From Pseudoalteromonas ruthenica (GTDB taxonomy: Bacteria > Pseudomonadota > Gammaproteobacteria > Enterobacterales > Alteromonadaceae), in contig NZ_CP023396.1 in the NCBI RefSeq assembly GCF_008808095.1, positions 3,179,501 to 3,243,500 of the forward strand: a stretch of 64,000 nt of DNA. Reading direction: 5' to 3'. Positions 7,405 through 54,014 of this stretch are shown in pieces. The notes under the pieces were generated by a model, which saw only the letters and a list, made by a program, of their open reading frames with translations, was not told where the DNA came from and did no database searches. Both the position numbers and the translations under genes were made by a program. Positions within the stretch are counted from its first letter, which is position 1. Each line of letters begins with the position of its first letter.

Positions 7405-7413
7405 TATCGGCTC

Positions 7414-8583
7414 CTACAGTTGATCCGTTGTCTTGGGGCTATTTTCAGAGCTATTTACAGCTCCGGCAATACGCACTTCCATGCCTTCTTGCGGGTACTC
7501 AGGCAAAGTGATAACCACACGGTCGTCAGCATCAAGGCCACCACTGATCAGAAAAAACTCATCTTCTTCACGTACCACTTTGACTTGTCGAGGTTGCAGC
7601 AGGTTGTCTTTATTCACCACCCACACCGTCTGGTTATTCACCAGTTCTTGCGGCAGGCGGAAAATCTCTTTCAAAGTTTGTCCGGCGAACTGCACTTGCA
7701 CATAGCTGCCAAACTTCAGCTTAGGCAATTGCCCGTGCATAGCGTAGGGATCGTTAACACGCACCACCAAGTTACTCATACGCGTAGCGCTGTCGACCAC
7801 GCCTAAATCGCGATCGATCACGGCACTGCGAGTGAAACCGTTTAAACCCTCCCGGATAATGGTGGCCGGCGTGCCAGCAACACGCTGTGGTAAAAAGGCA
7901 CTGTCAAAACCAGCCACGGGGACAATCACTTCCGCCGTCTCGATATTGTTAAGTTCAGCTACTTGGCTACCCACAGAAACGAACTGTCCTTGGCCTACGT
8001 TTCGGCTGATCACTAAGGCATCGTAGGGGGCGCGGACTTCGCAGTTGTCTAAATCACGCTGAGCACGCTTTAACGCTGCTTCTGCTGATTTCACAGCAGC
8101 TTTGGCGCTGAGCACCTGAGGTTCACGCAGGAATAATGCTGAACGCTTTACACCCGGTGTACGGGCAGCTTCGTCTTTGGCGACGTCTTGTTGTGCTTGC
8201 TCTTCAATTAATGCCGCTTGGGCCCGAGCAAGCTCTGCTTCGGCTTGTAATACCGCAGCTTCATAGTTATCTTTTTCAATAGTGAACAGCAGCTCGCCAC
8301 GCTCAACAATACCGCCTGCAACAAAGCGTTCGTTCCAGCTTACCACCTCGCCGGTAACCTGCGCGGCAAGCTGAGTGCTTTCAAGAGGCTGTACCTCACC
8401 ATATGTGGATAGCAACACTTGATGATCGTTGGCCGCAAGCTGCTCTACCTCAACGACTGGGCGTGTATCAACTTGCTTGGTCTCATCTGGCTTCTTTGCC
8501 GACACCATAACAGCGGCTCCAGCAAGCCCCGTTACTAACACGACTCCCAGCGCCACCAACAACTTTTTCAGTACCTTGTGCAT
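7414..8583 (-). CDS. Efflux RND transporter periplasmic adaptor subunit
   Basis: Membrane fusion protein that bridges the RND pump to an outer-membrane channel. 389 residues from ATG 8583 (AAGG 9 nt upstream); an in-frame GTG at 8589 has poorer spacing. An N-terminal anchor/signal (about 7-28: LLVALGVVLVTGLAGAAVMV) is followed by a biotinyl-lipoyl-like half (GEVVSWNERFVAGGIVERG), an alpha-hairpin rich in Ala/Glu (about 95-165), the second lipoyl half (VRAPYDALVISRNVGQGQFV), then the beta-barrel and membrane-proximal domains. It is the first gene of the operon with the permease. Confidence 0.92.
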   Translation of the reverse strand: MHKVLKKLLVALGVVLVTGLAGAAVMVSAKKPDETKQVDTRPVVEVEQLAANDHQVLLSTYGEVQPLESTQLAAQVTGEVVSWNERFVAGGIVERGELLFTIEKDNYEAAVLQAEAELARAQAALIEEQAQQDVAKDEAARTPGVKRSALFLREPQVLSAKAAVKSAEAALKRAQRDLDNCEVRAPYDALVISRNVGQGQFVSVGSQVAELNNIETAEVIVPVAGFDSAFLPQRVAGTPATIIREGLNGFTRSAVIDRDLGVVDSATRMSNLVVRVNDPYAMHGQLPKLKFGSYVQVQFAGQTLKEIFRLPQELVNNQTVWVVNKDNLLQPRQVKVVREEDEFFLISGGLDADDRVVITLPEYPQEGMEVRIAGAVNSSENSPKTTDQL

Positions 8584-8798: not shown

Positions 8799-8828
8799 GA
8801 AAAAGGCTGCATACGGGCAGCCTTTTTT
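8799..8828 (-). terminator. Bidirectional rho-independent terminator
   Basis: Arms aaaaggctgc and gcagcctttt flank an atacgg loop, with A and T runs on both sides, so it can work on either strand. It ends the PQ-loop gene on the minus strand and isolates the RND operon promoter region (8590-8798), in which I see no other feature. Confidence 0.8.
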
Positions 8829-8837
8829 ACTTCGAAC

Positions 8838-9452
8838 TTATGCCATAGCAGGACGATGACGGTAATATTGAATACAGGCTAATTGCGCCGCATTGGTCAA
8901 TAAGATCATCACAAAGTTAAGAATATGCGACACGCTGGGCGCCGCCATATAAAGTTCAGCCGTCAGACCAAAGCACCCTGCCAAAAGCTGCAACATAAAA
9001 TAGCGCGCACTCAAGTTACTAACATCACCACTGCGCAAAGTTTTATAGGTTTGTGGCATAACGCGAATTGAGCTCATAACCAGACCAACATACGTCAGAG
9101 CGATAAGCAGACTATCGGCATCAACGTAAGGGCTAGCCAATAAAGAGAACGGCGCCACGCTGAATAGTAGCATGTACAATAATTGCTTACGCTGCTTGGC
9201 TGCGGCATCGTAACGAAGAAAATAGTACAAAATAAGGCTACTGAGCATACCGGTCACCACAAAAGGTAAAACCATGTAGTAACGCTCAAAAAATAGGTTG
9301 AAGGCAATAAAGTAAATACTTTGCGCTACGCCAAAACTCATCATAAGCAAAGAAAGCCCAGAAACACTGCGGTTTTTGCGAACTTTATTTAGCATCGGCA
9401 TAAAGCTAAAAGCTAAGATAAAAGACGAAATAATGGGCAAATACTCAGTCAA
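8838..9452 (-). CDS. PQ-loop / SemiSWEET-like seven-helix membrane protein
   Basis: A hydrophobic protein with about seven predicted TM helices. It holds two PQ-loop-like segments: FMPMLNKVRKNRSVSGLSLL near the N-terminus and VMPQTYKTLRSGDVSNLSAR near residue 150, which is the SWEET/MtN3 layout of two triple-helix bundles and a linker. Transport of a small solute is plausible but not shown. No ATG sits at the N-terminus: a TTG at 9452 with AGAGG 4 nt upstream gives 204 residues; a TTG at 9509 would add 19. It is divergent from the PepSY gene. Confidence 0.7.
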   Translation of the reverse strand: MTEYLPIISSFILAFSFMPMLNKVRKNRSVSGLSLLMMSFGVAQSIYFIAFNLFFERYYMVLPFVVTGMLSSLILYYFLRYDAAAKQRKQLLYMLLFSVAPFSLLASPYVDADSLLIALTYVGLVMSSIRVMPQTYKTLRSGDVSNLSARYFMLQLLAGCFGLTAELYMAAPSVSHILNFVMILLTNAAQLACIQYYRHRPAMA

Positions 9453-9678
9453 AGCAACCTCTTTTGTTAAACTAATCGTTAAAATAGAAAACAGGCCGTT
9501 AATAAACAAACAATTAATGTAAACACATGATTATTAACAACTTTTTAAGGCGCGCATTGTATAGATGCTAGCCTACTAAGCAATAGCAATACGGCACTCA
9601 ACGCATCATGCAAACGTAAAGATATAATTACATTTTCAGCTTATGTTTACGCTTAACGAGTATGGTTGTATTATTTTT

Positions 9679-9697
9679 GATAATCGTTATTATTTGC
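9679..9697. promoter_or_regulatory. Candidate Fur box before the PepSY gene
   Basis: GATAATCGTTATTATTTGC matches the 19-bp Fur consensus at about 13 of 19 positions and lies 29 bp upstream of the start of a PiuB-like gene, a family often under iron control. Confidence 0.5.
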
Positions 9698-9725
9698 ATA
9701 ACCGTCAGAAAGCTCGCTTAGTCCC

Positions 9726-10865
9726 ATGCGTAAAACCCTATTTAAAATTCATAGCTGGTTAGCTCTTGCTGCCATGCTGCCATTACTGTTGATCAGTATC
9801 ACTGGTGCTATTTTGGTGTTTAAAAGCGAAATAGATGGCTGGCTAATGCCGCAAAAACACTTTGCCGTCGCCAATACTGAACAGCGGTTGTCGCTTGATA
9901 CGCTCACCGAGCGCATCGAACAACGTTATCCAGAACACGTTATTGCTGCGTGGGAAGTGTTTGATAATGACACTGCAGATAGAGTGTACACAATCAAAAA
10001 AGGCACCGAGGATTGGTACAAGTTCCACGTCAATCAATACACTGGCGAGACACTTTCTGAACCTGTTAGCACCACACATTACATTACCGATTTCTTGGTA
10101 GAGCTGCATTACACCTTTATGCTCAATGACTTGGACTCCTTACCAGGACAAACAGGAACAGTACTGGGGTTTTTCTTCGCACTGTTCTTATTGGTGTTAG
10201 GGGTTACGGGACTTATCATTTATCGCAAATTTTGGCGTCGTTTGTTCACTTTACGCTGGCGAGCAACGCTGCAAATTGTGCTCAGTGACATTCATAAAAT
10301 GACGGGGGTTTTTGGCTCTCCCATTCTCATTATATTGGCGATCACCGGGGGCTACTTTAACTACGCTGTGTGGTATCACGAAGTAATTGAACATGCCGAT
10401 GAAGAGCATCCTGTGGTGATGAATAAACAACATTCGGCAAACTTATCACTGCAGTCATTAATGGACGACAGTCGCACACAAATTGCCAGCTTTAAGCCAA
10501 CTTTTATCACGTTACCTCATGAGGGAGATGACCATATTACCTTTTGGGGAGAAGTCGACAGCAGCAATCCGCTTTTCAGTGAATACGGTAATATGGTGAC
10601 TTATAACCGTGACACAGGTGCCCATATGAGCAACTGGGATATCCGTGAGGTAGCATTTGGTTGGCAATTAATCGATAGCTTTCGCAAGTTACACTTTGGC
10701 TATTTTGCCGGTCTTGTTAGCAAAATCATCTGGGCGGTGATCGGTTTAAGCCCAGTTTGGCTGGCGGGCACAGGGTTTTACTTGTGGTATGTGCGAAGCC
10801 GCCGTAAGAAGGCTTCTAAGCGTAACCGTCGTACACAAACACAACACAAGCGGGCTTATAGCTAG
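9726..10865 (+). CDS. PepSY-associated TM helix protein (PiuB-like, iron-linked)
   Basis: 379 residues; four TM helices are visible (about 12-33, 140-162, 198-218, 335-356), typical of the PepSY_TM/PiuB family, with the opening KIHSWLALAAMLPLLLISIT and internal HxxxG-type motifs (SDIHKMTGVFGSP). Members are often beside siderophore receptors and are thought to reduce ferric siderophores in the inner membrane; this role is inferred from the family. It stands alone behind a Fur-box candidate and ends in a basic tail. Start is ATG 9726; no strong ribosome-binding site is visible, so a slightly different start cannot be ruled out. Confidence 0.87.
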   Translation: MRKTLFKIHSWLALAAMLPLLLISITGAILVFKSEIDGWLMPQKHFAVANTEQRLSLDTLTERIEQRYPEHVIAAWEVFDNDTADRVYTIKKGTEDWYKFHVNQYTGETLSEPVSTTHYITDFLVELHYTFMLNDLDSLPGQTGTVLGFFFALFLLVLGVTGLIIYRKFWRRLFTLRWRATLQIVLSDIHKMTGVFGSPILIILAITGGYFNYAVWYHEVIEHADEEHPVVMNKQHSANLSLQSLMDDSRTQIASFKPTFITLPHEGDDHITFWGEVDSSNPLFSEYGNMVTYNRDTGAHMSNWDIREVAFGWQLIDSFRKLHFGYFAGLVSKIIWAVIGLSPVWLAGTGFYLWYVRSRRKKASKRNRRTQTQHKRAYS

Positions 10866-41655: not shown

Positions 41656-42020
41656 GTTGCGACCCTCTTTTTAGCGTTAGCAATGGTTTGAGCGTAATAT
41701 GCAGGGATGGGCATCACTTTAAACGGGCTGACATTAGCACCACCGGTGTTGCCCCTAGGTACCCAGCCCAATGCGGTTTTGCTGGCGGCTCCGAGAATCC
41801 GCATAAGTTGCCCCGTAAACTCTGGTAAAACGCGGTTACACCACGCCCAACGGAGCATCAACATATGCACATAGGTATGCCAATAGGTGGACTCTTGACC
41901 CAATACATGGGCATTTTGTAAGTGAAAAAATTGCTTATTGGGGTCGTTGGCATACTCTGCTTGGCGTGCATACACCAACTCACGTAACACACTAAACCGA
42001 ATGGCTTGACTAAAGGTCAT
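41643..42020 (-). CDS. DUF3703 family protein
   Basis: 125 residues from ATG 42020 (the frame extends to 42050 without support). The conserved stretch HLQNAHVLGQESTYWHTYVH and the C-terminal GWVPRGNTGGANVSPFKVMP are diagnostic of DUF3703. Function unknown. Overlaps and probably co-expressed with the acetyltransferase. Confidence 0.85.
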   Translation of the reverse strand: MTFSQAIRFSVLRELVYARQAEYANDPNKQFFHLQNAHVLGQESTYWHTYVHMLMLRWAWCNRVLPEFTGQLMRILGAASKTALGWVPRGNTGGANVSPFKVMPIPAYYAQTIANAKKRVATWEQ

Positions 42021-42101
42021 GGACGCTCTTAAAAGTGAACAAACTTTCACCTAGCATACTACTTAGAGTTAGCTCCAAGGCAAGCATTAAATGGTGACTT
42101 C

Positions 42102-42584
42102 TTAATCGCTGAGCTGTACTCGCAATTGTTTTAAGGTATGTTGACTAAACACACTCACGTGATTTGCTCGTAGCAGTGCACTCACGACCCCTTGCCCCGG
42201 CACCTTGCGAGCACCAAACTCGCCATTGTAAATGGTATTGCTACCACAGGAAGGGCTCGATTCTGTTAACACCGCATAGCGAATGTCGTGCTGTTTGCAC
42301 AATGCTAGTGCCTGGCGAGCGCCTTGCAAAAACACCGCTGTGACATCTTCACCATCTGCGGTCACTATTTTAGCCCGCCCTGCGAGCACATCATCGCCAT
42401 CACCCCCTACAATTTCTGCTGCCGCTCTGGGAATCGGCAAGCCCGCAGCAACCTCTGGGCACAATGGCATGATATGACAATGGCTACGCAGCCATTGCAT
42501 ATGTTCGCACTCTGCACTTACGCAGGTGGCGTTATAACGCACTTTACTGCCCAACAGGCAGGCACTCACTAAAACTGGGGTCAT
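42102..42584 (-). CDS. DUF523 family protein
   Basis: 160 residues from ATG 42584 (GTG 42587 adjacent). DUF523 signature VSACLLGSKVRYNATCV at the start, then CPEVAAGLPIPRAAAEIVG, and a Cys pair in LTESSPSCGSNTIYNGEF. Family function is unknown; the Cys residues suggest metal binding or redox. No clear ribosome-binding site; a perfect 16-bp palindrome lies 13 bp upstream of the start and could pair in the leader. Confidence 0.88.
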   Translation of the reverse strand: MTPVLVSACLLGSKVRYNATCVSAECEHMQWLRSHCHIMPLCPEVAAGLPIPRAAAEIVGGDGDDVLAGRAKIVTADGEDVTAVFLQGARQALALCKQHDIRYAVLTESSPSCGSNTIYNGEFGARKVPGQGVVSALLRANHVSVFSQHTLKQLRVQLSD

Positions 42585-42596
42585 CACGATAATAAA

Positions 42597-42612
42597 TGGC
42601 TGATATCAGCCA
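42597..42612. promoter_or_regulatory. 16-bp perfect palindrome before the DUF523 gene
   Basis: TGGCTGATATCAGCCA is exactly palindromic. It lies in the 138-bp divergent interval, close to the DUF523 start, where an operator or leader hairpin would act. Confidence 0.4.
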
Positions 42613-42725
42613 GTAACTTACCGAAAATATCAGCGCTCGGCTAGTAAGGCGCTGTAATGACCCGTAATGGTTAATAATTTTGAGGGTGTTGTACTAATTG
42701 GCATGCTTTTTCGGCTTTTTTTACT

Positions 42726-43343
42726 ATGTGTCAGAATCATCAACTCAGCGGCCAAGTAGCCGCATTTGCGCAGCTCTCGCTCTGTTTTTCGCCGTTGGAT
42801 ATTCTCAATTCATTGCCTAAGTTAACAACTCTGCCTTGGGTTCCTCATGTAAATACCCAACATTATCAGGGCCAGTGGGACGTTGTTCCGTTACGTTGCC
42901 AAGCCCACCATAAAAGCGCCCATGAGATCTTACAAAGCTTTAGTATTGACCAAGGCGAACATTGGACCAACTTAGCGTTATTACAAAACAGTCATGCGCT
43001 TGTTGAGGTGTTGGCGAGTCTGCCTTGTCCGGTAAAAGCTGTGCGACTCATGCGCTTACGAGCCGGCGCGGAAATAAAACCCCATCAAGACCCTGGGCTC
43101 GCACTGGAATTCGGCGAGGCCAGATTACACTTACCATTGCGTAGCGACGAGCACCTTATATTCAACGTAGCTGATCATCGTGTGCCGATGCAGTGCGGAG
43201 AGCTTTGGTATCTCAATGCCAACATGACACATAGCGTGCACAACCGCAGTACTGAAGACCGCATCAATGTGGTGATCGACTGCCAAAGTAACACCTGGCT
43301 TACTCACCAAGTTTATAACAGTGCTAATTGCCTGTGGGTATAA
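42726..43343 (+). CDS. Aspartyl/asparaginyl beta-hydroxylase family protein
   Basis: 205 residues, a small Fe(II)/2-oxoglutarate-dependent dioxygenase-fold protein. The metal triad is visible as His and Asp in IKPHQDPGLALEFGEARLHL (about 117-136) and His in MTHSVHN (about 162), with a 2-oxoglutarate-binding Arg soon after. Natural substrate unknown. The stop overlaps the convergent metallopeptidase-like gene by 31 bp. Confidence 0.85.
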   Translation: MCQNHQLSGQVAAFAQLSLCFSPLDILNSLPKLTTLPWVPHVNTQHYQGQWDVVPLRCQAHHKSAHEILQSFSIDQGEHWTNLALLQNSHALVEVLASLPCPVKAVRLMRLRAGAEIKPHQDPGLALEFGEARLHLPLRSDEHLIFNVADHRVPMQCGELWYLNANMTHSVHNRSTEDRINVVIDCQSNTWLTHQVYNSANCLWV

Positions 43344-43825
43344 GCGTCATCACGAAACCACTGTTGCATAACGGGAAACCCCTGTGGTTGCTCGGGTGCA
43401 AGACACATAAACCAACTATAAAGTAGCGGCACACCCGGGCCTAGGTTAGTGCTAAAGGCAGTAATTAAGTTAGCGGCAGCGCCGCGATAGCCGTGTTCGT
43501 GAAACACGACACTAGGCGGCAGACCTATCGCTTGAAGTGCTGCCCACGACCACGCCATTGCCGCCATTTCTTCGCCGCCTTGGTGACCCCATTGTTTAAC
43601 ATCACCGCTGAGTGTGGCGCGGTGATGTCGGTCTGTAACCGCTAAGTGCCCAGCCTCATGGAGTAAATCCCCTTCATGGGCTAAGCGCTTTTTATCAATC
43701 ACTAATATCCCTTGATGAATATTGATACCCGGAAGAAAGCTCTCTTCAGCCACTGGAGCAAAGCGATAAGGCAGCTCGATATCATCGAAGAACTGCAAAA
43801 TAGCAAGCAAGTGAGTGTGCACCAT
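43313..43825 (-). CDS. Putative zinc metallopeptidase-like protein with HExxH
   Basis: 170 residues from ATG 43825 (AGGT 4 nt upstream; GTG 43831 also possible). The LLHEAGHLAVTD motif at about 56-67 contains HEAGH, as in many zincins, with a candidate third ligand in GGEEMAAMAWSWAALQ. No signal peptide, so it is cytoplasmic. I do not recognise a named family; activity is not proven. Convergent with and overlapping the beta-hydroxylase gene. Confidence 0.65.
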   Translation of the reverse strand: MVHTHLLAILQFFDDIELPYRFAPVAEESFLPGINIHQGILVIDKKRLAHEGDLLHEAGHLAVTDRHHRATLSGDVKQWGHQGGEEMAAMAWSWAALQAIGLPPSVVFHEHGYRGAAANLITAFSTNLGPGVPLLYSWFMCLAPEQPQGFPVMQQWFRDDAYTHRQLALL

Positions 43826-43895
43826 GATCACCTCGTCAGCTGTTGTGATACTTGCAGCTTACAGCGGCGACACTCACGCTTGCTATTACAGGCCA

Positions 43896-44138
43896 TTACC
43901 CGGCTTTTGAGCTTAATGCCGCGTAGAGAGTGTCTAAATGTTTCACTAAGTCGAGACCTAAATCGGTTAAATAACCCCCATCGGGACTATCGGTAATGCC
44001 TTTATCGAACAACCGCTGCGCGGCATCACGCAACGCTGCATCAGCATCACTGTGTACCTTTATGCCCTGCATATGGCTAGCACGTGGAAACTTTGCCAAC
44101 AGCTCCATTTCATCAATCATGGTTTTATTTATGCGCAC
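43896..44138 (-). CDS. TIGR02647 family protein
   Basis: 80 residues from GTG 44138 with AAGGA 6 nt upstream. The whole length fits TIGR02647: IDEMELLAKFPRASHMQGIK, HSDADAALRDAAQRLFDKG, then DGGYLTDLG. This family is conserved in marine gammaproteobacteria (Shewanella, Vibrio, Pseudomonas); some annotate it as a DNA-binding or regulatory protein, which is unproven. Confidence 0.85.
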   Translation of the reverse strand: MRINKTMIDEMELLAKFPRASHMQGIKVHSDADAALRDAAQRLFDKGITDSPDGGYLTDLGLDLVKHLDTLYAALSSKAG

Positions 44139-44309
44139 GGTGATTCCTTATAATTGTTGTTGCTATCACTTTAATGCTAGTTGAAGATCAAATTTATGCC
44201 GCTTTTTTAAAGTACTTTATTTCTTGCTAAGTAGATGAAAGTAAATGCTTTACAAGGGCAACTAATGCGCCCATATTAAGGCCATAAAAGCCAAGATGGC
44301 GGAGGAACA

Positions 44310-45275
44310 ATGTTGCTTGCAATAACAGCGATTTTAGCTGGTTTTATACTACTGGTTTACAGTGCCGGACGCTTTGTAGACGGCGCTGCGGCCACAGCGG
44401 CACACGCAGGGTTACCCACTATTTTGATCGGTATGCTTATAGTCGGGTTTGGCACATCCGCACCGGAAATGGTTGTCTCGGCGATGGCTGCGAGTGATGG
44501 CAATCCGGCGCTAGCACTAGGCAACGCTCTTGGCTCAAATATTGTCAATATTGGCCTAATTTTAGGGGTCACTGCACTGATTGCTCCCATCACAGTGCAC
44601 TCGAATATTGTTCGCAAAGAGCTACCTCTGCTTTTGGCTGTGGTGTTGCTGTGTGGCTATTTGCTCTACGATGGTCAATTGACCACATTCGACGCCACCT
44701 TGCTGCTTGGTGGCTTTGTTAGCGTGGTGGCATGGTCAATATATTCAGGCCTGCGCCACCACAACGACCCACTGGCAAGCGACACCGAGCAGGGTGTCAC
44801 CAGCCAAACCATGGGGCTAAAGAGCGCACTGTTTTGGTTAGTTTGTGGCTTAGTGGTTCTAGTGCTAAGTTCACGCATATTAGTGTGGGGTGCGGTGCAA
44901 GTCGCCTCGGCATTGGGAGTCAGTGATTTAGTCATTGGCCTGACTATTGTCGCTTTGGGCACTTCACTACCAGAGTTAGCTGCGTCTATTATTGCGGCAA
45001 AAAAAGGCGAGCATGATATCGCCATTGGCAACGTGGTAGGCTCGAACATGTTTAATATTCTTGCCGTTATTGGTATTGCTGGAGCGATTGAGCCCTTCGG
45101 CCTTGGCGCAGATATTTTTTATCGTGATTGGGGAGTGATGCTGGTGTTAACGCTTGCTTTGCTGGTCATGGCCTATGGCATCGGCCGTCAAGGCCGTATC
45201 AACCGGGCAGAAGGTGGGCTATTGCTCAGCGGTTATCTCGCCTACAACGGCTACTTGCTGTGGACCTTAGTGTAA
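44310..45275 (+). CDS. Calcium/sodium antiporter (CaCA family, YrbG-like)
   Basis: 321 residues with ten TM helices and the two inverted alpha-repeats that form the ion sites: GFGTSAPEMVVSAMAA at about 47-62 followed by GNALGSNIVNIGLIL, and ALGTSLPELAASIIAA at about 212-227 followed by GNVVGSNMFNIL. The acidic Glu in each repeat is the coordinating residue. ATG 44310 with GGAGG 4 nt upstream. Exchanges Ca2+ for Na+ or H+. Confidence 0.95.
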   Translation: MLLAITAILAGFILLVYSAGRFVDGAAATAAHAGLPTILIGMLIVGFGTSAPEMVVSAMAASDGNPALALGNALGSNIVNIGLILGVTALIAPITVHSNIVRKELPLLLAVVLLCGYLLYDGQLTTFDATLLLGGFVSVVAWSIYSGLRHHNDPLASDTEQGVTSQTMGLKSALFWLVCGLVVLVLSSRILVWGAVQVASALGVSDLVIGLTIVALGTSLPELAASIIAAKKGEHDIAIGNVVGSNMFNILAVIGIAGAIEPFGLGADIFYRDWGVMLVLTLALLVMAYGIGRQGRINRAEGGLLLSGYLAYNGYLLWTLV

Positions 45276-45333
45276 ACGCGAGTGCGAGCAAACCCACTCT
45301 CTAATCATTGAACACCTTAGTTAAGGACAACCT

Positions 45334-45687
45334 ATGCAATATAAGAAAACATATTATGCAATTAAGGCACTCGCTGTTTTATCTTTTGCTGCCATTGCTT
45401 TTACATATTGGGGAGCCGGTCTAGCTCTGTTATTGCTGCTATCGCCCTATGCTATCTTGTATTTTTTGGCCAACAGTCACAGCTATCGCAATACAAAATT
45501 AGCCGTGATGCGAGCCACGCCGGCGATATTCAGCTTTTTCATCATGCTGGGATTAGTGTTTGGGATTCAATCAGACCCACAGTCAGGTATCGGCGTTATG
45601 CTAGGCTTAACGGCGCAATTGGCTGCCATTAGCCTCGCCGAGTTAATCATCCTGTTTTTCTTGCGAACGCCAGAATACGCACCTTAA
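45334..45687 (+). CDS. Hypothetical membrane protein
   Basis: 117 residues with AAGGA 6 nt upstream of ATG 45334. Four hydrophobic helices (about 12-26, 28-46, 64-82, 88-110) cover nearly the full length. No recognised family; small inner-membrane protein. 58 bp after the antiporter gene, so it may share its transcript. Confidence 0.65.
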   Translation: MQYKKTYYAIKALAVLSFAAIAFTYWGAGLALLLLLSPYAILYFLANSHSYRNTKLAVMRATPAIFSFFIMLGLVFGIQSDPQSGIGVMLGLTAQLAAISLAELIILFFLRTPEYAP

Positions 45688-45722
45688 TCTGTACGATAAA
45701 CGCATAACTGTTACCCTTTGAT

Positions 45723-45851
45723 ATGGTGTGCGCTGTAATCAAGTACTGCCCGGGTGATGCAGATGCAAAACGCCAACGCTTCTGCCCGCTACACCACAGC
45801 CATTGTTACCAGCAGGTATTCTCTGGCTTTAACGTCGCCCTAGGTAACTAG
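45723..45851 (+). CDS. Possible 42-residue Cys/His-rich small protein (weak)
   Basis: An ATG frame too short for routine calling encodes a product with Cys at positions 3, 9, 21 and 28 and three His at 24-27 (KYCPGDADAKRQRFCPLHHS), resembling a zinc-ribbon-like layout. No ribosome-binding site is seen. It may equally be chance or a remnant; I cannot confirm coding. Confidence 0.2.
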   Translation: MVCAVIKYCPGDADAKRQRFCPLHHSHCYQQVFSGFNVALGN

Positions 45852-45862
45852 GGCAATGATTG

Positions 45863-46651
45863 TTAACTCTGTGGGCACGCAGGGTGTTCTAAAAGCACTT
45901 GCGTGACAATTTGCCCAAACAGCGCTTGCTGCTGCTGGTCTAGCTGAAGCGCCGGGTTATAGGGAATGGCGTCCGCCAATTCGCCAGTAATGATTTCATA
46001 AAAGGTCATTGCCGTGAGCACCTTCCCTGCATAAGATGCATGATTACCATCTGCGTGATGTAGCTCAACCGTTGGCATAACGTCTAATACACGGTTCCAA
46101 ACCAAGCCTACGGGCGCGACACAGCTAAGCTCTTGTTGACTAATGGATTGATGTAAATTGTACACCCGCTCTGCCTCAGATGGGTCACCACGTTGTGGGT
46201 GCTCTGGAAATAATATCGGTGTGATGTTGTTTGATTTAGCCTTTGCAATTAAACGCTCAGTTGCGTGCGTTGGATAGTCGGTTGCGCCGGACTGAGAGTA
46301 CTTTTGCCCTTGAAATATGGCGTGGCTCCAAGTGCTTTTTTCTAATTGCTCTACGTTTGCAGTAACCGCAGCAATTTCATCTAAAAACCGCCCACTAATT
46401 GTTACCGTTTCAATCGTCTTATTTGGAAGTTGGTCACTGATCAGTGTTTCAATGATTGAACCTAATTGTGAGCTATGACTGTTACCATAAATAACCAACC
46501 GATAGTCAGCAACAGCACTATTATCAACGATGTTACCTGTCGGTGTTGGTGTCAGTTGCTTCGGCTCATCATTTTTTGTGCCAGAGCCACAGGCCGTTAG
46601 GTTTAGCCCTATAAAGGCTATGAAGGATATCGCTAAAGGTTTTATCGACAT
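45863..46651 (-). CDS. SGNH-hydrolase-like lipoprotein
   Basis: 262 residues from ATG 46651, preceded by GGGAGG. Lipoprotein signal with the lipobox LTAC (Cys 21) after a hydrophobic run, then a Thr/Pro-rich linker. An SGNH-type fold is suggested by block I YGNSHSSQLGSI (about 55-66, Ser in GNSHS), and a C-terminal block DGNHASYAG (DxxH) at about 212-220. This is an esterase or acyl hydrolase family; the substrate (glycan acetyl or acyl) is unknown. Monocistronic. Confidence 0.7.
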   Translation of the reverse strand: MSIKPLAISFIAFIGLNLTACGSGTKNDEPKQLTPTPTGNIVDNSAVADYRLVIYGNSHSSQLGSIIETLISDQLPNKTIETVTISGRFLDEIAAVTANVEQLEKSTWSHAIFQGQKYSQSGATDYPTHATERLIAKAKSNNITPILFPEHPQRGDPSEAERVYNLHQSISQQELSCVAPVGLVWNRVLDVMPTVELHHADGNHASYAGKVLTAMTFYEIITGELADAIPYNPALQLDQQQQALFGQIVTQVLLEHPACPQS

Positions 46652-46935
46652 GATCACCTCCCTGTTACATTGCGCAAAAGCGCATAGACGATAGATATAT
46701 GATTCTTTTCGAAAATACACACATTAGTAGGCAACTGCAACAGTAAAAAAGCACAAATAATGTGCAGCGCCAGATAAAAAAATCAAAGGTTTACTATGAT
46801 AATTAAGCGCGATAAAAACCCATAATGGCAATAACTTACATTATTTGATATTAATAAATCAGCGACCAAAGTAAACTTATCATCATTTTAGTCAGTGGAG
46901 GTTTTGTGCGCAGTTTTGAAAGTCACGGAGGTCAT

Positions 46936-47151
46936 ATGTCTCAACGGGAAAAGGTTACAACATGGTTAATGTTAGTGATCTCATTCGCTGTATTTATTGC
47001 TGCAACATATATAATTGGTTCGCTTATTGGCAGTCTATTTATCACCGCAACGGTTGAGCTATCAATTCTGCAAATCGGCATTATTTGTGGGGGGATCACA
47101 GCAATATCAGTATTTATACGTTGCGTGAAAAAAGTTAAAAAATCATGCTGA
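46936..47151 (+). CDS. Small two-helix membrane protein
   Basis: 71 residues from ATG 46936, or 81 from GTG 46906. Both starts have their own GGAGG (46927-46931 and 46897-46901) with a 4-nt gap, so the true start is uncertain. Two TM helices (about 8-32 and 40-62) and a basic end, KKVKKSC. No known family. AT-richer than most of the window; may belong to the accessory region. Confidence 0.5.
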   Translation: MSQREKVTTWLMLVISFAVFIAATYIIGSLIGSLFITATVELSILQIGIICGGITAISVFIRCVKKVKKSC

Positions 47152-47265
47152 ATTAGCTCGCATTTCTAGGTCATAACAGAGGTAGCTTAGAGCGAGCGAC
47201 AGACGGTCATCCACCGAAATCACAGTGATACATCCATAATCATTGAGTTTCTCACACAGTCAGGT

Positions 47266-47290
47266 AAACGACCCAGAGGGTCGTTTTTGT
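47266..47290 (+). terminator. Rho-independent terminator upstream of the cassette region
   Basis: Arms aaacgaccc and gggtcgttt around aga, followed by a T run. It closes the small membrane-protein transcript. The rest of the 309-bp gap (47152-47460) holds no gene I can support; GTTAGCT at 47424 has the look of a cassette border but no partner. Confidence 0.75.
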
Positions 47291-47460
47291 AGTGCCCACG
47301 CTTAGAGCAATGTCGCGTAACTTCAGCGCTGGTAAGTATTTCCTAAATTTGCTATCAATGGTCTAAAGACTAAAACGAGACAGGTTGCGGCAGAAAAACG
47401 ACCCAATCGCTCGATATTAAATTGTTAGCTGTACACCAATCTGAAACAGTAGAGAAATAA

Positions 47461-48003
47461 ATGGAATCAATACTCGGAAGTGTTATCTGGCGTTTTTTCA
47501 AATGGTTGCCACCATTCATTCTGAGAAGAATATTCTCGGCCGAATGGATGATGAAAAACATCTATATTGATATTCGCCCGAGGCATACTTCTGTAGAAAT
47601 TTGTCAGCCTGATAACCCGAGGGTAAGCATCTATTTAGACATTAGAAATAATACCCACTTCAATGTAGAGATTGATCGGATATTGCTCAGCTTTACATAT
47701 GGTACAGAGCTGGCTAATCCACAGCATTTTAAACGAGAATACTTAAAGCCCGGCGAGTCCCGAACAATATATTTCACTGGCAATATAGATCACAGTAGGT
47801 TTCAAGGGCTGGCGTTCCAGTACCAAAATAATTTTCGGCACTGCAATTTGGGTATTCTAGCTGAGTGCAATACACGACTGCATAAATTGTGCATAGAAAG
47901 AACTCTCGAGGGTATCAAGCCTGAAATATTAAATGCCCACCTTCTAGAAGCAGCTAACAAGTCAAGCAAAATGGACGCGCAAACAGCGCGCGCCTCTTCT
48001 TGA
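47461..48003 (+). CDS. Unknown protein of the first integron-type cassette
   Basis: 180 residues; no family recognised. N-terminus hydrophobic (WRFFKWLPPFILRRIFSAEW), so it could be membrane-associated; the middle is beta-like (RVSIYLDIRNNTHFNVEIDR, RTIYFTGNIDHSRFQG), the end helical. The last residues and the stop codon lie in an attC-like site, which is usual for integron cassettes. Base composition is AT-rich relative to neighbours, as in transferred genes. Its start is ATG 47461 with a weak ribosome site. Confidence 0.65.
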   Translation: MESILGSVIWRFFKWLPPFILRRIFSAEWMMKNIYIDIRPRHTSVEICQPDNPRVSIYLDIRNNTHFNVEIDRILLSFTYGTELANPQHFKREYLKPGESRTIYFTGNIDHSRFQGLAFQYQNNFRHCNLGILAECNTRLHKLCIERTLEGIKPEILNAHLLEAANKSSKMDAQTARASS

Positions 48004-48013
48004 GGCGTTATAC
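47952..48013 (+). repeat. attC-like recombination site 1 (integron cassette end)
   Basis: Left half AGCTAAC-AAG-TCAAG-C-A and right half T-CTTGA-GGC-GTTATAC are complementary through TCAAG/CTTGA, with an unpaired C in the left arm. An inner imperfect hairpin (GGACGCGC and GCGCGCGCC around AAACA) closes the structure. The cleavage point would be G^TTATAC at 48007/48008. Typical attC order R"-L"-L'-R' is seen. Confidence 0.75.
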
Positions 48014-50957
48014 GGTTGGTTTAGTAAGTCCGATTTTGACCCAAAGCGGAAGTCGAAATCATAGTTACTCTGACCTCTTAATTTATAAGGAGTTAAACCA
48101 TTGATGGCTACCGTATTTAATCAAGTTCAAAACGCAAGCAGTGCTATTTCTCATAATATCGCCAATCTTAGCGATAACAGAGAGCTTCTGTCTCAGAATG
48201 TACTCGCTCAAGTTAGAAATTTGGTTGAGGGGGTAGCCGTATTGTTTTATCGGGACTCATTAGATGCCGAATTTTCCTATCCCGAAATTAATCCAGCACT
48301 GCAGCATATTAGTGGTAATGGAAGATTAAATTTTGTTTGTCGGTTCCATAAGCTACTTCAAAAGGTAGCTTCTCACTACACTTTTGATGGGGATGCATCA
48401 GAAAGATTAATGCTCAAATACTATGAATATTTGTATAGAATTAGAGCCGCTGTTTATAAAAACTACTCTCTCCAGTTAATACCCAACCTTGAATCATTTC
48501 CTGTCGATTTGGATCCTTCTTTACGCGAATATCATGAAAAAATAACTGCTAGAATTGAATGTTCACGCAGCACTAATTATGTTGGAGATAGAAAAGACCG
48601 TTACTATGTTCAAAAAAATCGTCCATTTATATTCAATGGCCGGATCTACTATGAGGTAACGTTTTGTCGTGCGGTAAATAAGGTAAGCAAGTTTGATCGA
48701 GTAATTGCTTTTACTGATCTTGAGATATCGGATAAGTACGCGGTTAATCTAACGCTCAGGCGCGATCAAATTGAAGTACTAGGCCAGATTATGCCTATTA
48801 CTTTAATCCTTGCATGGGAAGTTTCTATTCGTTCCTGTGAGCTAAAAAACTTCGCCCGTTTACTCGGTCACTCGGTAACAGGGAGTACGTCTTCACAGGA
48901 ATATCGATATTTAATGAGCTTTTTGACACAAGGTTATCGAAATTTGAATGACCTGATGTGTATGAGTGATCAAGATTACCAACAGGTGAAACTAGGGGCG
49001 CTAGTTACAAATCACTCCTCTCAAATATTTGTTTTTTTGGATAGAGCGCGACAGATCATTAAAGCATCTCTCCCAGGCGGTAACATTCTTCGCTATCTTC
49101 TTTTGAGGATGAACAACCAATTACTGAAGTCTCAATATAATCGTGACGGATGTGAGCTACTATCTAATCTAAAATTTTCCTTTAGTAGTATTCCATTTGA
49201 TAAGATGCCTTTTTGTACATCTCTCCCTAAGCATAATCCGAGGTTTTGGGATCTCTCTGATTGTATCGATATGGTGGGGCGCCAACATGAACTTCTGGCT
49301 AGACGTGTTAGAAATAACGTTGAAAGACATGGGGTTTTGTATACCCCAATCGGAGATTTAAGCGAATTTGGAGATGTTGAGGCATTAATAAACGACTTTA
49401 ATAATCGAATTTACAAAACACACAAAGAAATTCGAAGTTTAGTTTCTGATAAAGGACACGTGTTTATAAATGGCTACGAAGAAGATACTTTCAGTATTAT
49501 TGAAAGGTTAAAAACATTTTCATCTTCTGGGATATCAGGATATACCCAAGCAGTAACACGCTGGATAGATGAGTCAGCTCACAGTATCGATGATACCGTG
49601 AAGCATCAGGCTTTAACTCAATTATTTAGCGATTCAAAGGTTGCTATTATATACGGCGCGGCAGGAACAGGTAAATCCACAATGGTTGACCATATTGCTC
49701 ACTACTTTAGCGACAAGAGAAAGCTATTTTTGGCTCATACGAACCCTGCTAAAGATAACTTAATGCGTAAGGTGACGGCGCAGAATTCTGAGTTTCGAAC
49801 CGTAAGTAGTGAAATTCATAGTGGTTGTAACCCTTTCTTGCCTGACTATGACCTTCTTGTGATTGATGAGTGCAGTACCGTTAGTAATTCTGATTTTTTG
49901 AAGGTATTAGAGAAGAACACCGCAAAATTGATAGTTCTTGTTGGTGATGTGTATCAAATTGAGTCAATACAGTTTGGTAATTGGTTCGAAGTGATTCGTT
50001 CTTTTATTCCTAGTTCCTCAGTCTTTGAATTAACAACGCCATTTAGAACACAGAATCATTCGCTATTAGATTTCTGGAATAAAGTTCGAAATATCGATGA
50101 TGACTTAACTGAAGTTATGGTTCGGCATGGTTATTCGTCGATATTGGACTCGAGTATCTTCCAGTCTCAAGGTAATGACGAAATTATACTGTGTTTAAAT
50201 TACGATGGTTTGTACGGGATTAATAACATTAATAGATTTCTTCAAAGTAGTAACCCTAATCCGGCGATAAACTGGAGTGATTCGACTTACAAAGTAGGAG
50301 ATCCTGTTCTCTTTTATGAATCTGAACGATTTAAACCTGTTATATACAATAACCTAAAAGGCCGAATAATTAGAATCGAACAGTTTGTCGGCTATATTCA
50401 ATTTGATATTGAGCTAGATCGTCCGTTGACTGAACTTGACGTTGCAGGGAATGAATTAGAGTGGGTAGAAGGTTCGACTGTTAGGTTCCAAGTTTTTGAA
50501 GTAAAGAATAGTGATGACGACGATGACTCATTAAATATTGCGATTCCGTTTCAAGTTGCCTACGCGGTATCTATTCATAAAGCGCAAGGGCTTGAATACG
50601 ATTCCGTCAAAGTGGTCATAACAGATGCTAACGAAGATGACATTTCTCATAGTATTTTTTATACCGCAATTACAAGGGCTAGGGAAAATTTAAAGATTTT
50701 TTGGACACCGGAGACTCAGCAAAAAGTTATTCAGCGTCTGCAACGAATACCTAGAAATAAGGATGTTGCTTTGATATCACGTCGGCGAGGTCTTACATCT
50801 GTTCTGATTTAATATGATTATTAGAACCGTGGATCAGAGCAACTTGATCTAAACGTCCGCTTATAGAATAGCGAAGTTGATGCAGGTAACGTATAACAAG
50901 CGCAAGCAGTCGGAAAAAGTGCTCGCTTACGCTCTCAATTCTCCGCTGTTGCGGGCG
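48008..50957 (+). mobile_element. Integron gene cassette carrying the helicase-like gene
   Basis: Interval between the cut points of two attC-like sites in the same direction, about 2.95 kb, unusually long for a cassette. It has one gene with its own ribosome site and a 93-bp leader. No integrase or attI is in the window, so this is a cassette array without integrase (CALIN) as far as can be seen. Confidence 0.65.
48104..50812 (+). CDS. SF1 (UvrD/RecD-like) helicase-type ATPase with large unassigned N-terminus
   Basis: 902 residues from ATG 48104; a TTG three bases earlier is better spaced (8 nt) from AAGGAG. Residues 1 to about 500 match no domain I know. The C-terminal part has Walker A GAAGTGKSTM at about 518-527, Walker B LLVIDECS at about 584-591, GDVYQIES and FELTTPFRTQN after it, an acidic patch (DDDDD) near 805, then the UvrD_C_2-type VSIHKAQGLEYDSV (about 822-835) and FYTAITRARENLKIFW (about 852-867). 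This is a DNA/RNA translocase or helicase motor. The N-terminal part may be a sensor or effector. It is in an attC-bounded cassette, so a defence role is inference. Confidence 0.7.
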   Translation: MATVFNQVQNASSAISHNIANLSDNRELLSQNVLAQVRNLVEGVAVLFYRDSLDAEFSYPEINPALQHISGNGRLNFVCRFHKLLQKVASHYTFDGDASERLMLKYYEYLYRIRAAVYKNYSLQLIPNLESFPVDLDPSLREYHEKITARIECSRSTNYVGDRKDRYYVQKNRPFIFNGRIYYEVTFCRAVNKVSKFDRVIAFTDLEISDKYAVNLTLRRDQIEVLGQIMPITLILAWEVSIRSCELKNFARLLGHSVTGSTSSQEYRYLMSFLTQGYRNLNDLMCMSDQDYQQVKLGALVTNHSSQIFVFLDRARQIIKASLPGGNILRYLLLRMNNQLLKSQYNRDGCELLSNLKFSFSSIPFDKMPFCTSLPKHNPRFWDLSDCIDMVGRQHELLARRVRNNVERHGVLYTPIGDLSEFGDVEALINDFNNRIYKTHKEIRSLVSDKGHVFINGYEEDTFSIIERLKTFSSSGISGYTQAVTRWIDESAHSIDDTVKHQALTQLFSDSKVAIIYGAAGTGKSTMVDHIAHYFSDKRKLFLAHTNPAKDNLMRKVTAQNSEFRTVSSEIHSGCNPFLPDYDLLVIDECSTVSNSDFLKVLEKNTAKLIVLVGDVYQIESIQFGNWFEVIRSFIPSSSVFELTTPFRTQNHSLLDFWNKVRNIDDDLTEVMVRHGYSSILDSSIFQSQGNDEIILCLNYDGLYGINNINRFLQSSNPNPAINWSDSTYKVGDPVLFYESERFKPVIYNNLKGRIIRIEQFVGYIQFDIELDRPLTELDVAGNELEWVEGSTVRFQVFEVKNSDDDDDSLNIAIPFQVAYAVSIHKAQGLEYDSVKVVITDANEDDISHSIFYTAITRARENLKIFWTPETQQKVIQRLQRIPRNKDVALISRRRGLTSVLI

Positions 50958-50963
50958 TTAGAC
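50891..50963 (+). repeat. attC-like recombination site 2 (cassette end)
   Basis: Left half GTATAAC-AAG-CGCAA-G-CAG-T-CGGA pairs with right half TCCG-CTG-TTGCG-GGC-GTTAGAC. Two unpaired bases (G and T) in the left arm are the hallmark of attC sites folded as single strands. The cleavage point would be G^TTAGAC at 50957/50958. The ends are like Vibrio superintegron sites (TATAACA...GGGCGTTAG). Confidence 0.85.
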
Positions 50964-51088
50964 CAGCATCTGCTTTCTCATAACATAAAGCTTGGGTGAC
51001 TAATGGTTGAATGGCGGTTAATGGCTTTGCGCTGACCGTCGGGCCAGCTACTAATAAACGTTCGGTCTAACACTTTATGCTATTGCAA

Positions 51089-51114
51089 CAAAAAAGGCGC
51101 TTTCGCGCCTTTTT
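51089..51114 (-). terminator. Rho-independent terminator of glmS
   Basis: Arms aaaaaggcgc and gcgccttttt around tttc, T run on the minus strand, 11 bp past the glmS stop. The rest of 50813-51124 holds attC site 2 and an ungenic ~125-bp stretch. Confidence 0.88.
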
Positions 51115-51124
51115 CAATTCCTTC

Positions 51125-52945
51125 TTATTCCACCGTTACCGATTTGGCTAGGTTTCGGGGTTGGTCAACGTCGGTGCCTTTAATAACCGCAACATAGTAC
51201 GAAAGCAATTGCAGTGGGATGGTATAAACCACTGGGGCAATGATGTTTTCCACATGGTTTACATTGATTACGCGCATGGTCTCGTCCGATGCAAAGTGTG
51301 AGTCCTTATCGGCAAACACGTAAATAATACCGCCACGGGCACGCACTTCCTCTACATTCGATTTCAGCTTTTCGAGCAACTCGTTATTCGGTGCCACGAC
51401 GATGATCGGCATATCGGCGTCAATCAAGGCTAATGGGCCATGTTTGAGCTCACCCGCAGCATAGGCTTCGGCGTGAATGTAAGAGATCTCTTTGAGTTTC
51501 AATGCCCCTTCCATAGCAATAGGGTACTGCGAGCCACGGCCTAGGAATAACGAGTGGTGTTTATCGGCGAACTCTTCCGCTAACTCCTCAATGCCCTCGG
51601 CCAGGGTCAAGGCTTCTTCAAGCTTGTTTGGCAGGGTCTTAATCGCACTTACAATAGCACGTTGATTAAGGCCTTTTTCTTGGGCGATGGACGCCGTTAG
51701 CATCAATAAGCCAACCAGTTGTGTGGTAAAAGCTTTTGTTGAAGCCACGCCAATTTCAGCCCCTGCTTTGGTCATAAAGGCTAAATCAGACTCGCGTACC
51801 AGCGATGAGCCCGGTACGTTACAAATGGTCATCGACGCCATGTACCCCTGCTCTTTAGCCAAACGCAAGGCAGCCAAGGTATCAGCCGTTTCACCCGATT
51901 GGGAAATCGTTACTAATAGGCTATTTTCGTGCACGAACGATTCGCGATAGCGGAATTCTGAGGCAATTTCGACATTACAGCTGACGCCGGCAAACTGCTC
52001 TAGCCAGTAACGCGCGACCATTCCCGAATGATACGAGGTACCACAGGCGATAATTTGCACGTGTTTTACGTCTTTAAAAATTTGCGTTGCGCCCTCACCA
52101 AAGGCATCTACACTGACGCGCTCATCGTGTAAACGACTATCCAAGGTATTACGCACTGCCAATGGCTGCTCGTAAATTTCCTTCAGCATATAATGGCGGT
52201 AGTCGCCCTTGCCAGAGGCGTCTTGGGTAATGTTAGATTCCACCACTTCACGCTCAACACTGTGGCCGTTGCTATCGAATATTTCCACGCTATCGCGGGT
52301 AATACGAGCCACATCGCCCTCTTCTAGGAAGATAAAGCTGCGAGTCACAGGCAATAGTGCAAGCTGATCAGAGGCAATAAAGTTCTCGCCGAGTCCTAAG
52401 CCGATAACCAGCGGGCTTCCTGAGCGCGCAACAATCACTTCATTATCGTTGGCTTTATCAAATACCACCGTGCCGTAGGCACCTTCTAGTTGTTTCACCG
52501 CCGCTTGTACGGCACTGAGCAAGGAGTTGTGCTGTTGGCGCAATTGATGGATAAGGTGCACCATAACTTCGGTATCTGTTTGCGATACAAACTCGTAGCC
52601 ATCGCCTTGCAACGCTTCGCGCAAACTGGCATGGTTTTCGATAATGCCGTTATGAACCAATGCTAATTCACTGTTAGAGACATGCGGGTGGGCATTGGCT
52701 TCGGTAACGCCACCATGAGTAGCCCAGCGAGTGTGGGCAATGCCCGTTGTGCCAGAAACATTGGCTTCATTGAGCGCACTTTCCAACGCCGCCACCTTAC
52801 CTACAGCTTTAACGCAATTTAAGGTGCTTTGTTGCGATAGCGCTACGCCTGCTGAGTCGTAGCCACGGTATTCAAGGCGCTTAAGGCCTTCAATTAAAAT
52901 TCGGTTCACAGGGCGTTCGGCAACAGCCCCTACTATTCCACACAT
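51125..52945 (-). CDS. glmS: Glutamine--fructose-6-phosphate aminotransferase (isomerising)
   Basis: 606 residues; makes glucosamine-6-phosphate from Fru-6-P and Gln, the first step to UDP-GlcNAc for peptidoglycan and LPS. Class II glutaminase domain with catalytic Cys after Met ([12 protein letters not shown]), [30 protein letters not shown]; then two SIS sugar-binding domains ([42 protein letters not shown]) and the C-terminal [13 protein letters not shown]. Its 3' end and downstream DNA are the standard attTn7 target region, and an accessory region lies there. 63 bp after the DeoR regulator gene. Confidence 0.97.
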
Positions 52946-53008
52946 AGATTCTCCATTTGCACAGTATGTGTTGTTAAAAAGCCCGATGTTGTCGGTCGGG
53001 TTATGTGT

Positions 53009-53773
53009 TTATACCTTGGCACAAATTAAATGTACGCCATGCGCGCTGATCTCTTGGCGCAAGTCTGCAGCCAAGGTGTTGTCGGTGATCAGAGTGCTGA
53101 CCTTGTGCCAAGGCAGTTCTAAATTTGGGATACGGCGGCCTATCTTGTCAGACTCCACCATCACCACCACTTCACGGGCCGCTTCAGCCATCACTTGGCT
53201 TAGGCCGATAAGTTCGTTGAAAGTAGTGGTTCCACGGGAAACATCGATACCATCAGCACCGATAAATAAGGTATCGAAATCATATGAGCGCAATACCTGC
53301 TCTGCTACTTGCCCTTGAAAAGACTCTGAATGTGGGTCCCAGGTACCACCGGTCATCAATAAGGTCGGCTCGTTCTCTAACGCCAGCAAGCGATTAGCAA
53401 CATTAATGGCATTGGTCATCACCACTAGGCCTCGTTTGCTCGCCAGTTCAGGGATCAAGGCGGCGGTGGTGCGCCCGCTATCGATGATAATGCGGTGATG
53501 ATCTTTAATAAGCTGAGCGGCTGCCTTGGCAATGGCGCGTTTACGGGCTGAGTCTTGCGGCTCTTCACTGGCAACGATTTCATTGGGTAAGGCAATCGCG
53601 CCACCGTATCGGCGTAGCAAGAGGCCGTTTTTTTCAAGTGTTGCTAAGTCCTTTCGAATCGTAACTTCTGATGTTTGCAGCTGCTCCGCTAACGCCTCTA
53701 CTGAGACTTCACCCATTTCATTAACCTGGCTAAGAATACTATGGCGGCGTTGCTGGGTATTGCGCTTGGTCAT
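53009..53773 (-). CDS. DeoR family transcriptional regulator next to glmS
   Basis: 254 residues. N-terminal helix-turn-helix about 7-60 (ALAEQLQTSEVTIRKDLATL), C-terminal DeoR sensor domain about 77-235 with IDSGRTTAALIPELA and GADGIDVSRGTTTFNE, which bind phosphosugars in this family. Placed 63 bp upstream of glmS on the same strand, as in many gammaproteobacteria, so it likely links amino-sugar levels to glmS expression; direct regulation is inference. ATG 53773. Confidence 0.9.
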   Translation of the reverse strand: MTKRNTQQRRHSILSQVNEMGEVSVEALAEQLQTSEVTIRKDLATLEKNGLLLRRYGGAIALPNEIVASEEPQDSARKRAIAKAAAQLIKDHHRIIIDSGRTTAALIPELASKRGLVVMTNAINVANRLLALENEPTLLMTGGTWDPHSESFQGQVAEQVLRSYDFDTLFIGADGIDVSRGTTTFNELIGLSQVMAEAAREVVVMVESDKIGRRIPNLELPWHKVSTLITDNTLAADLRQEISAHGVHLICAKV

Positions 53774-54014
53774 TCAGTTACACTTAAGTTTCGATTCGAA
53801 AGATAGACCATTATAGTCGAAACTTTATGTCAAGCTCAATGCACAAATGGTATGCGCATAAAAATAGTCGCAAAACGCTTAATTACGGCTTAAGCACAAT
53901 CAGTGAGTGATCAACACTGATACGAGCAACGTAATAATTTCATTACTTAATTTGCGCTTGCTCTTGCCAGCGCCTAGCCTAAAACAACGGAGTGTTTAAT
54001 AAAGGAAGTTCAAC

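Follow-up and report, generated by a model that had tools for sequence, protein, structure and literature searches.

The 64,000-nucleotide stretch of Pseudoalteromonas ruthenica DNA analysed here (the window; contig NZ_CP023396.1, positions 3,179,501 to 3,243,500) contains two gene cassettes that begin at a full copy of an integron attachment site, attI, with no integrase gene (intI) beside it. The usual model of an integron has one integrase, one attI and one array, in which expression falls with distance from attI. We consider it probable that the array in the window is instead an integron platform without an integrase of its own, and that it belongs to a distributed integron in which one integrase (IntI) serves many attI sites in trans. 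Several landing sites of this kind occur in the genome and its relatives, which suggests that one integrase may serve scattered capture sites. The features of the array and its right-hand neighbour are, in window coordinates:

47180..47242, + strand: left extension common to most attI copies without intI, LexA-like box gone (left-flank alignment and box scan).
47243..47427, + strand: attI-A copy lacking intI; the crossover follows G 47424 (homology to the intI-linked attI; 17-copy alignment).
47392..47427, + strand: attI core, with the same sequence in each of the genome's six copies.
47425..48007, + strand: gene cassette 1, between the attI and attC crossovers (R'' box complementary to the first 7 nucleotides, 7/7).
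47461..48003, + strand: open reading frame (ORF) of cassette 1, 180 amino acids, function unknown; its stop codon lies within attC.
47952..48013, + strand: attC of cassette 1 (covariance model R2, 40.3 bits, E = 1.3e-6).
48008..50957, + strand: gene cassette 2 (R'' rule 7/7; left edge coincides with the start of homology to Marinobacterium marinum, at 48005).
48104..50812, + strand: PDC-S53, candidate anti-phage protein, 902 amino acids (PADLOC; superfamily 1 helicase motifs in the C-terminal half).
50891..50963, + strand: attC of cassette 2 (covariance model R2, 46.5 bits, E = 5.7e-8).
51125..52945, - strand: glmS, right-hand neighbour, 3' end towards the array (SIS and GATase domains).

Genomes are numbered G### and loci L### below; G000 is the genome of the window (4.12 Mb, two contigs, C1 and C2). 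The attI copy was identified by homology to a site between intI and a first cassette, and by where that homology ends. Elsewhere on this chromosome, the stretch that separates the intact intI from its first cassette (L010:11486-11661) is 85% identical to window positions 47243-47428, with the crossover as the end point of the match. A profile of this family, attI-A, also matches the site (G000:C1:3226743-3226927, 169.6 bits), with the window copy one of its 17 training rows. Because the array begins with an attI copy, it is an attI platform without intI and not a bare attC cluster. The window attI and the intI-linked attI are 2.46 Mb apart in contig coordinates; on a circular replicon the shorter path between them would be about 0.8 Mb.

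The six attI-A copies in the genome are least alike away from the crossover. Upstream, 53 of 149 columns vary and mean pairwise identity is 85%, compared with 0 of the 36 crossover columns (Fisher test, 1.8e-6). A LexA-like box controls intI, and we scanned for it as CTGTN8ACAG with one mismatch allowed. It is present at all three attI copies with an intact intI and at 5/7 of those with intI remnants, at none of the five intI-less copies in this genome, and at 4/49 of all intI-less copies (one of the four is doubtful). Taken together, the invariant core and the loss of the box suggest that the part of attI needed by a distant integrase was kept, while the part controlling a local intI was mostly lost.

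The original prediction had placed two attC sites here in the same direction and proposed an attC covariance model, run on the window and the genome, as the check. Our model (R2) was trained on thirty-nine sites, none from the window and nine from elsewhere in the same genome; their stem covaries, with 8 of 12 predicted pairs changed on both sides. Both sites scored strongly at the positions first given, and they were the only two matches in a scan of the full 64 kb on both strands at E ≤ 10. Each has the R''-L''-L'-R' order, a paired stem with unpaired bases and a GTT crossover. Genome-wide they rank 31st and 36th among 49 attC matches (E ≤ 1). A simpler attC scanner scored them 15 and 18; in 640 kb of Markov-shuffled window sequence (ten shuffles, scanned on both strands) scores of at least 15 occurred five times and of at least 18 never, so site 1 alone would be weak by this crude score.

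The absence of a tyrosine recombinase from the window, also part of that prediction, agrees with our searches, as none of the genome's ten matches to the integron-integrase model and none of its four to PF13495 fall there. No IntI match lies within about 8 kb of the attI, which is thus not adjoined by intI as in a complete integron. By the software definition (at least two attC, no intI nearby) the array is therefore a cluster of attC sites lacking an integron-integrase (CALIN), as originally proposed. That name misses the main point, which is that the array begins at a full attI copy and that a related intact IntI is encoded in the same genome.

Both cassettes obey a simple rule: for a cassette that was once circular, the R'' box of attC must be the reverse complement of that cassette's own first seven nucleotides. 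Cassette 1 begins with GTTAGCT and its attC with AGCTAAC; cassette 2 begins with GTTATAC and its attC with GTATAAC. The closest homologue found for the cassette 2 gene, in Marinobacterium marinum (L092, 93% amino acid identity), is itself cassette-borne. Its nucleotide homology to cassette 2 (94.2%) begins at the crossover and is preceded by a different attC (30.8 bits). Such identity with another genus points to a recent transfer.

A single integrase gene in the genome exceeds the family cut-off (C1:770481-771425, 446 bits against a cut-off of 265), and it has no internal stop. IntI4 is the closest solved relative of its product, IntI-A. The attC matches in the genome (44 of the 49 below 1e-3) form about 17 clusters over both replicons, one of them beside the intact intI. 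The attI profile gave ten matches: six strong attI-A (one beside the intact intI), two attI-B, and two rejected ones (L202 and L203, profile R1) that have no crossover and were taken as chance.

The attI-B sites are at L213 (C1:491460-491639) and L214 (C1:1084894-1085070), the second adjoining degenerate integron-integrase pieces (C1:1084433-1084823). Integrases linked to attI-B in G010, G077 and G078 are 75-77% identical to IntI-A at the amino acid level. A further family, attI-C, carries repeats of a ACCTTGCAAGGT-like motif ahead of the crossover and heads at least four clusters obeying the cassette rule (L204, L205, L207, L208), with a fifth exact pattern match at G000:C2:61777-61799. There was no IntI-A-like gene within 1.5 kb of 22 attI-C pattern loci, and integrases beside attI with attI-C-like ends are 41-46% identical to IntI-A. 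Pattern matches to attI-C with three mismatches in other genomes were not counted, since a reversed control pattern also gives eight.

The attI block recurs across the genus. It was found in 51 of 108 genomes by DNA search (E ≤ 0.001) and in 71 by profile (E ≤ 1e-5), often more than once per genome, with eleven matches in G077 and ten in G099; intI was found at E ≤ 1e-80 in 78/108. Among 345 genomes drawn from the order, attI matches (E ≤ 1e-8) came from eleven, which belong to eight genera of the window's family. Two of these genomes, outside the genus, have seven and six matches. Searches of plasmid records matched two Pseudoalteromonas replicons, and a search of phage records gave no attI match.

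We compared fifty-nine attI-like sites. The window together with 36 loci, for the most part best matches, supplied 38 cores, and 20 loci picked among weaker ones supplied 21 profile matches. Two doubtful cores (L192, L193.2) were kept, and two regions out of a set of 20 that was fetched (L176, L183) were left out because they had no attI core at up to eight substitutions. The sample is not random, and the order of the locus search favours copies like the window's, so the counts that follow are not genus-wide rates. An intact intI lies beside attI at three sites (L010, L174, L177) and a frameshifted or truncated one at seven (L172, L175, L180, L181, L187, L300, L305). At the other 49 none was found; the query was IntI-A for the first 38 sites, joined by IntI-B for the remaining 21. 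At 41/59 sites attI is followed by an attC that fits the rule exactly; sixty shuffles of the cassette starts gave a mean of 3.9 and a maximum of 8, with a shuffle that returned a site's own cassette start scored as a miss.

At L173, in P. piscicida 2515, an intI unit seems, when read by eye, to be joined at its end to attI across a short repeat. At L269, L274 and L285 (G106, G040) a repeated sequence, GAACTAAGCCGCTACGC..., sits directly at the attI crossover and is possibly another attI-targeting element; L269 also has a second recombinase-like match nearby, 29% identical to IntI.

At one orthologous platform two species carry different cassettes. This platform, present in G079 (L051) and G078 (L055), has a left flank of 5.8 kb at 91.8% identity and a right flank of 4.8 kb at 92%. 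Behind attI the two differ over about 0.9 and 1.1 kb and hold different cassettes, and neither has intI. In G103 one 386-bp cassette, 100% identical, sits directly behind three intI-less attI of differing sequence (L189, L190, L191), and the shared block spans exactly from attI crossover to attC crossover at all three. At another platform, locus alpha, the state could be read in eight of the genomes with a match there: a broken intI and attI in G018 and G072, attI without intI in G075 and G046, a cut attI in G071, a fragment of a different IntI in G034, and an empty locus in G040 and G098. The empty state shows that the alpha platform lies within a larger insertion, so a target duplication is not readable.

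The usual view of CALINs offers the strongest competing account, in which a complete integron at glmS lost its intI and the two cassettes are frozen remains. The stages of intI decay at other platforms favour such a relic, as do genomes with platforms and no strong intI. Against it stand a core that is invariant in all six copies when the rest differs by 15%, the different cassettes at the orthologous intI-less platform of G078 and G079, and the near identity of the PDC-S53 cassette to one in another genus. On balance we think the array unlikely to be a dead relic.

Homologous recombination could instead have duplicated or swapped platforms and cassettes as blocks, with no integrase acting at the copies. 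At locus alpha large flanks are common between genomes and the content varies, as this would predict, and a block of about 300 bp recurs behind platforms in G077-G079 (L051, L053, L055, L058, L059) and inside L047. The recurring block may be a degenerate cassette or the end of an element; we tried reading it as a transposon-like right end, but no terminal repeats could be established. The shared block in G103, by contrast, is bounded exactly by the two crossovers behind attI copies that differ, and outside insertion sequences no cassette stretch longer than 130 bp is common to the platforms of this genome. Copying in blocks therefore seems to us improbable.

Two shared blocks are read as insertion sequences. 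A 1192-bp block that is 100% identical between L010 and L206 overlaps ORFs of an rve transposase. A 1536-bp block, 99.9% identical at platforms L174 and L175, at first resembled a shared cassette, but its start forms an inverted repeat with the sequence at its far end in L175, and it was dropped as evidence. This probable insertion sequence sits at an attC crossover in L174 (from about 8038) and L175 (far end of the array), and it seems to target cassette ends.

The two remaining alternatives are both very improbable. Integrases are known to insert cassettes at ordinary genomic attG-like sites (excerpts of PMC12444791), but the site here is one of six attI copies and spans the full 185 bp, so that attI would need to have come in afterwards. 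The attI block might also be a miniature mobile element or regulatory repeat beside which the cassettes are incidental, as it has several copies per genome and contains, by eye, the inverted repeat AAACGACCC / GGGTCGTTT followed by T; yet its end coincides with the crossover, and at the 41 sites counted above a cassette obeying the rule starts there; the block also lies between intI and the first cassette in intact integrons, and is most conserved on the crossover side.

A number of observations weigh against a distributed integron as well. Recombination in trans, expression from the platforms and the copying route are steps that we infer, and a consensus scan of 47150-47480 detected neither a promoter-like nor a terminator-like site. 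Homologous replacement could account for the differing cassettes at a single locus. In G103 the shared cassette departs from the strict rule at one base and the single intI that was found is partial; across the whole sample the strict rule fails at 18 of 59 sites. In the window's own genome the attI-C platforms are without a recognised cognate intI. Several other genomes have attI-like matches and no intI at E ≤ 1e-80 (e.g. G027, with seven matches), so platforms also persist without a strong integrase. Marinobacterium does not confirm the right edge of cassette 2, as the homology stops at 50824, before attC; the L092 contig ends 94 bases later.

If a distributed integron is nonetheless the correct reading, it would work as follows. 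The genome would combine one intact IntI with several attI platforms, each with a single cassette or a few. Produced from the main locus, IntI would act in trans: it would bind attC in its folded form as well as the attI cores, and insert circular cassettes at any platform. The attI-A copy behind glmS would have accepted two of them. As in ordinary integrons, expression of the cassettes nearest attI would start from the platform. The platforms most likely go back to integrons that were copied to, or inserted at, new sites and lost intI there, because relatives show the stages (intact, frameshifted, short stub, none) with the attI core kept.

The glmS stretch is present in all 108 genomes of the genus. 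Between the window attI and glmS lie the two cassettes, with no trace of intI beside attI. In 29 relatives the 1.5 kb behind glmS contained no attC at E ≤ 0.1, and no alignable empty site extended beyond about 35 bp next to the gene. Two other species have integron parts behind glmS in the orientation opposite to the window array: an intact IntI-B integron in G010 (L273), and attI-A with a 29-residue intI stub in G040 (L274). By this comparison of positions, the space behind glmS was used more than once. An Rfam scan of 42000-54000 (E ≤ 1) returned a single sub-threshold snoRNA match at 53008-53172, which was taken as chance.

The ORF of cassette 1 had no match in Pfam or PADLOC. Its protein has thirty homologs, few of which carry names, and those names read hypothetical protein. 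The original prediction had recognised neither gene; cassette 2, however, is identified by PADLOC as PDC-S53, a defence candidate with a predicted anti-phage role. Residues 2-899 of the 903-residue frame align to positions 1-897 of the 900 in the model (1332.5 bits), Pfam domains are AAA_30, Viral_helicase1 and UvrD_C_2, and the closest solved relative is RecD. The name PDC-S53 does not occur in the open-access literature searched.

Reading these genes as cassettes also implied that their homologues should not lie in fixed, non-cassette loci. That holds for the closest homologue of cassette 2, in Marinobacterium, but not for the gene family as a whole. Of the 80 related loci returned, just two (L092 and L119) were found to have an attC immediately before the gene, by a model that was trained on Pseudoalteromonas attC and may miss sites in other taxa; the family as a whole is therefore not bound to cassettes. 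At L119, from a gammaproteobacterial metagenome-assembled genome, the PDC-S53 relative (5436-8123) lies between attC sites at 5308-5384 and 9878-9937, the downstream one 1.75 kb past the gene. Near the relative at L128 there are attC sites as well, but they do not flank the gene.

Ten further ORFs from cassette regions of the genome were tested (two are transposase ORFs), and two match defence models: PifA, at 285 bits, in the cassette that opens the intI array, and PD-T7-4, at 313 bits, in the second cassette at L048. Two ORFs at L206 are possible defence genes without a PADLOC match, one with PIN_8 (8801-10033, - strand) and one with HATPase and a weak HSDR_N (6056-8032, - strand). Matches to defence models at three platforms (PDC-S53, PifA-like and PD-T7-4) bear on the storage and exchange of defence genes. 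Darracq and Kieffer are both said to have reported defence cassettes in 2025.

We tentatively extend this reading to Pseudoalteromonas and some related genera, a wider claim that we hold to be slightly less likely than not. The integrase there would capture cassettes at many attI, on the chromosome as well as on the second replicon. Each platform would offer a first, expressed position, and the number of expressed cassettes would be set by attI copies and not by array order. The absence of intI from a platform would be normal and not decay, platforms would spread, and CALINs elsewhere may be of the same kind, attI not having been searched for. If several attI platforms are in fact served in trans, the limit of array order would be lifted, with a first position for every platform, and scattered CALINs would turn from relics into working sites. 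Which CALINs are active would become testable; the sign to look for would be a conserved repeat that reaches exactly to the first crossover.

Among known systems, the window array resembles a CALIN in its two same-direction attC sites with no intI nearby, on which an IntI elsewhere could act in trans (excerpts of PMC12444791). It is unlike one in starting at a full attI copy with a conserved core; CALIN calls, according to part of PMC9024848, do not seek attI outside class 1. The genome has all the components of a sedentary chromosomal integron (intI, attI, attC and cassettes of marine gammaproteobacterial type), with several small arrays at several attI copies in place of one array at one attI. 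In attG insertions IntI acts at genomic sites. Mobile integrons have in addition delta-attI cassettes (portions of PMC12901181). Both are alike in that IntI acts beyond its linked attI, as far as these excerpts go, and unlike in that a full attI copy heads the array here, not a degenerate site or a cassette end.

Closer parallels come from Shewanella and Xanthomonas. Excerpts of PMC12444791 and PMC9229058 describe CALINs at several loci in Xanthomonas, with mobilisation in trans stated, and scattered CALINs and single attC sites lacking an integron-integrase (SALINs) in Shewanella. These arrays share with ours attC sites far from intI and several loci per genome; the same excerpts report no attI at the array starts. 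Where such CALINs occur, the strain also has an integrase that can mobilise the cassettes, according to parts of PMC12690207, which cite defence cassettes too. Several intI-less attI platforms per genome are not reported in the open-access literature searched, which is weak evidence of absence since bioRxiv preprints were outside its scope. The nearest precedent found is a Shewanella prophage carrying a CALIN with its own attI, the same attI as that of the linked integron (excerpts of PMC9892861). In those excerpts it is one pair in one prophage, whereas the attI-like matches described here reach about ten per genome at most and occur in many genomes of a family.

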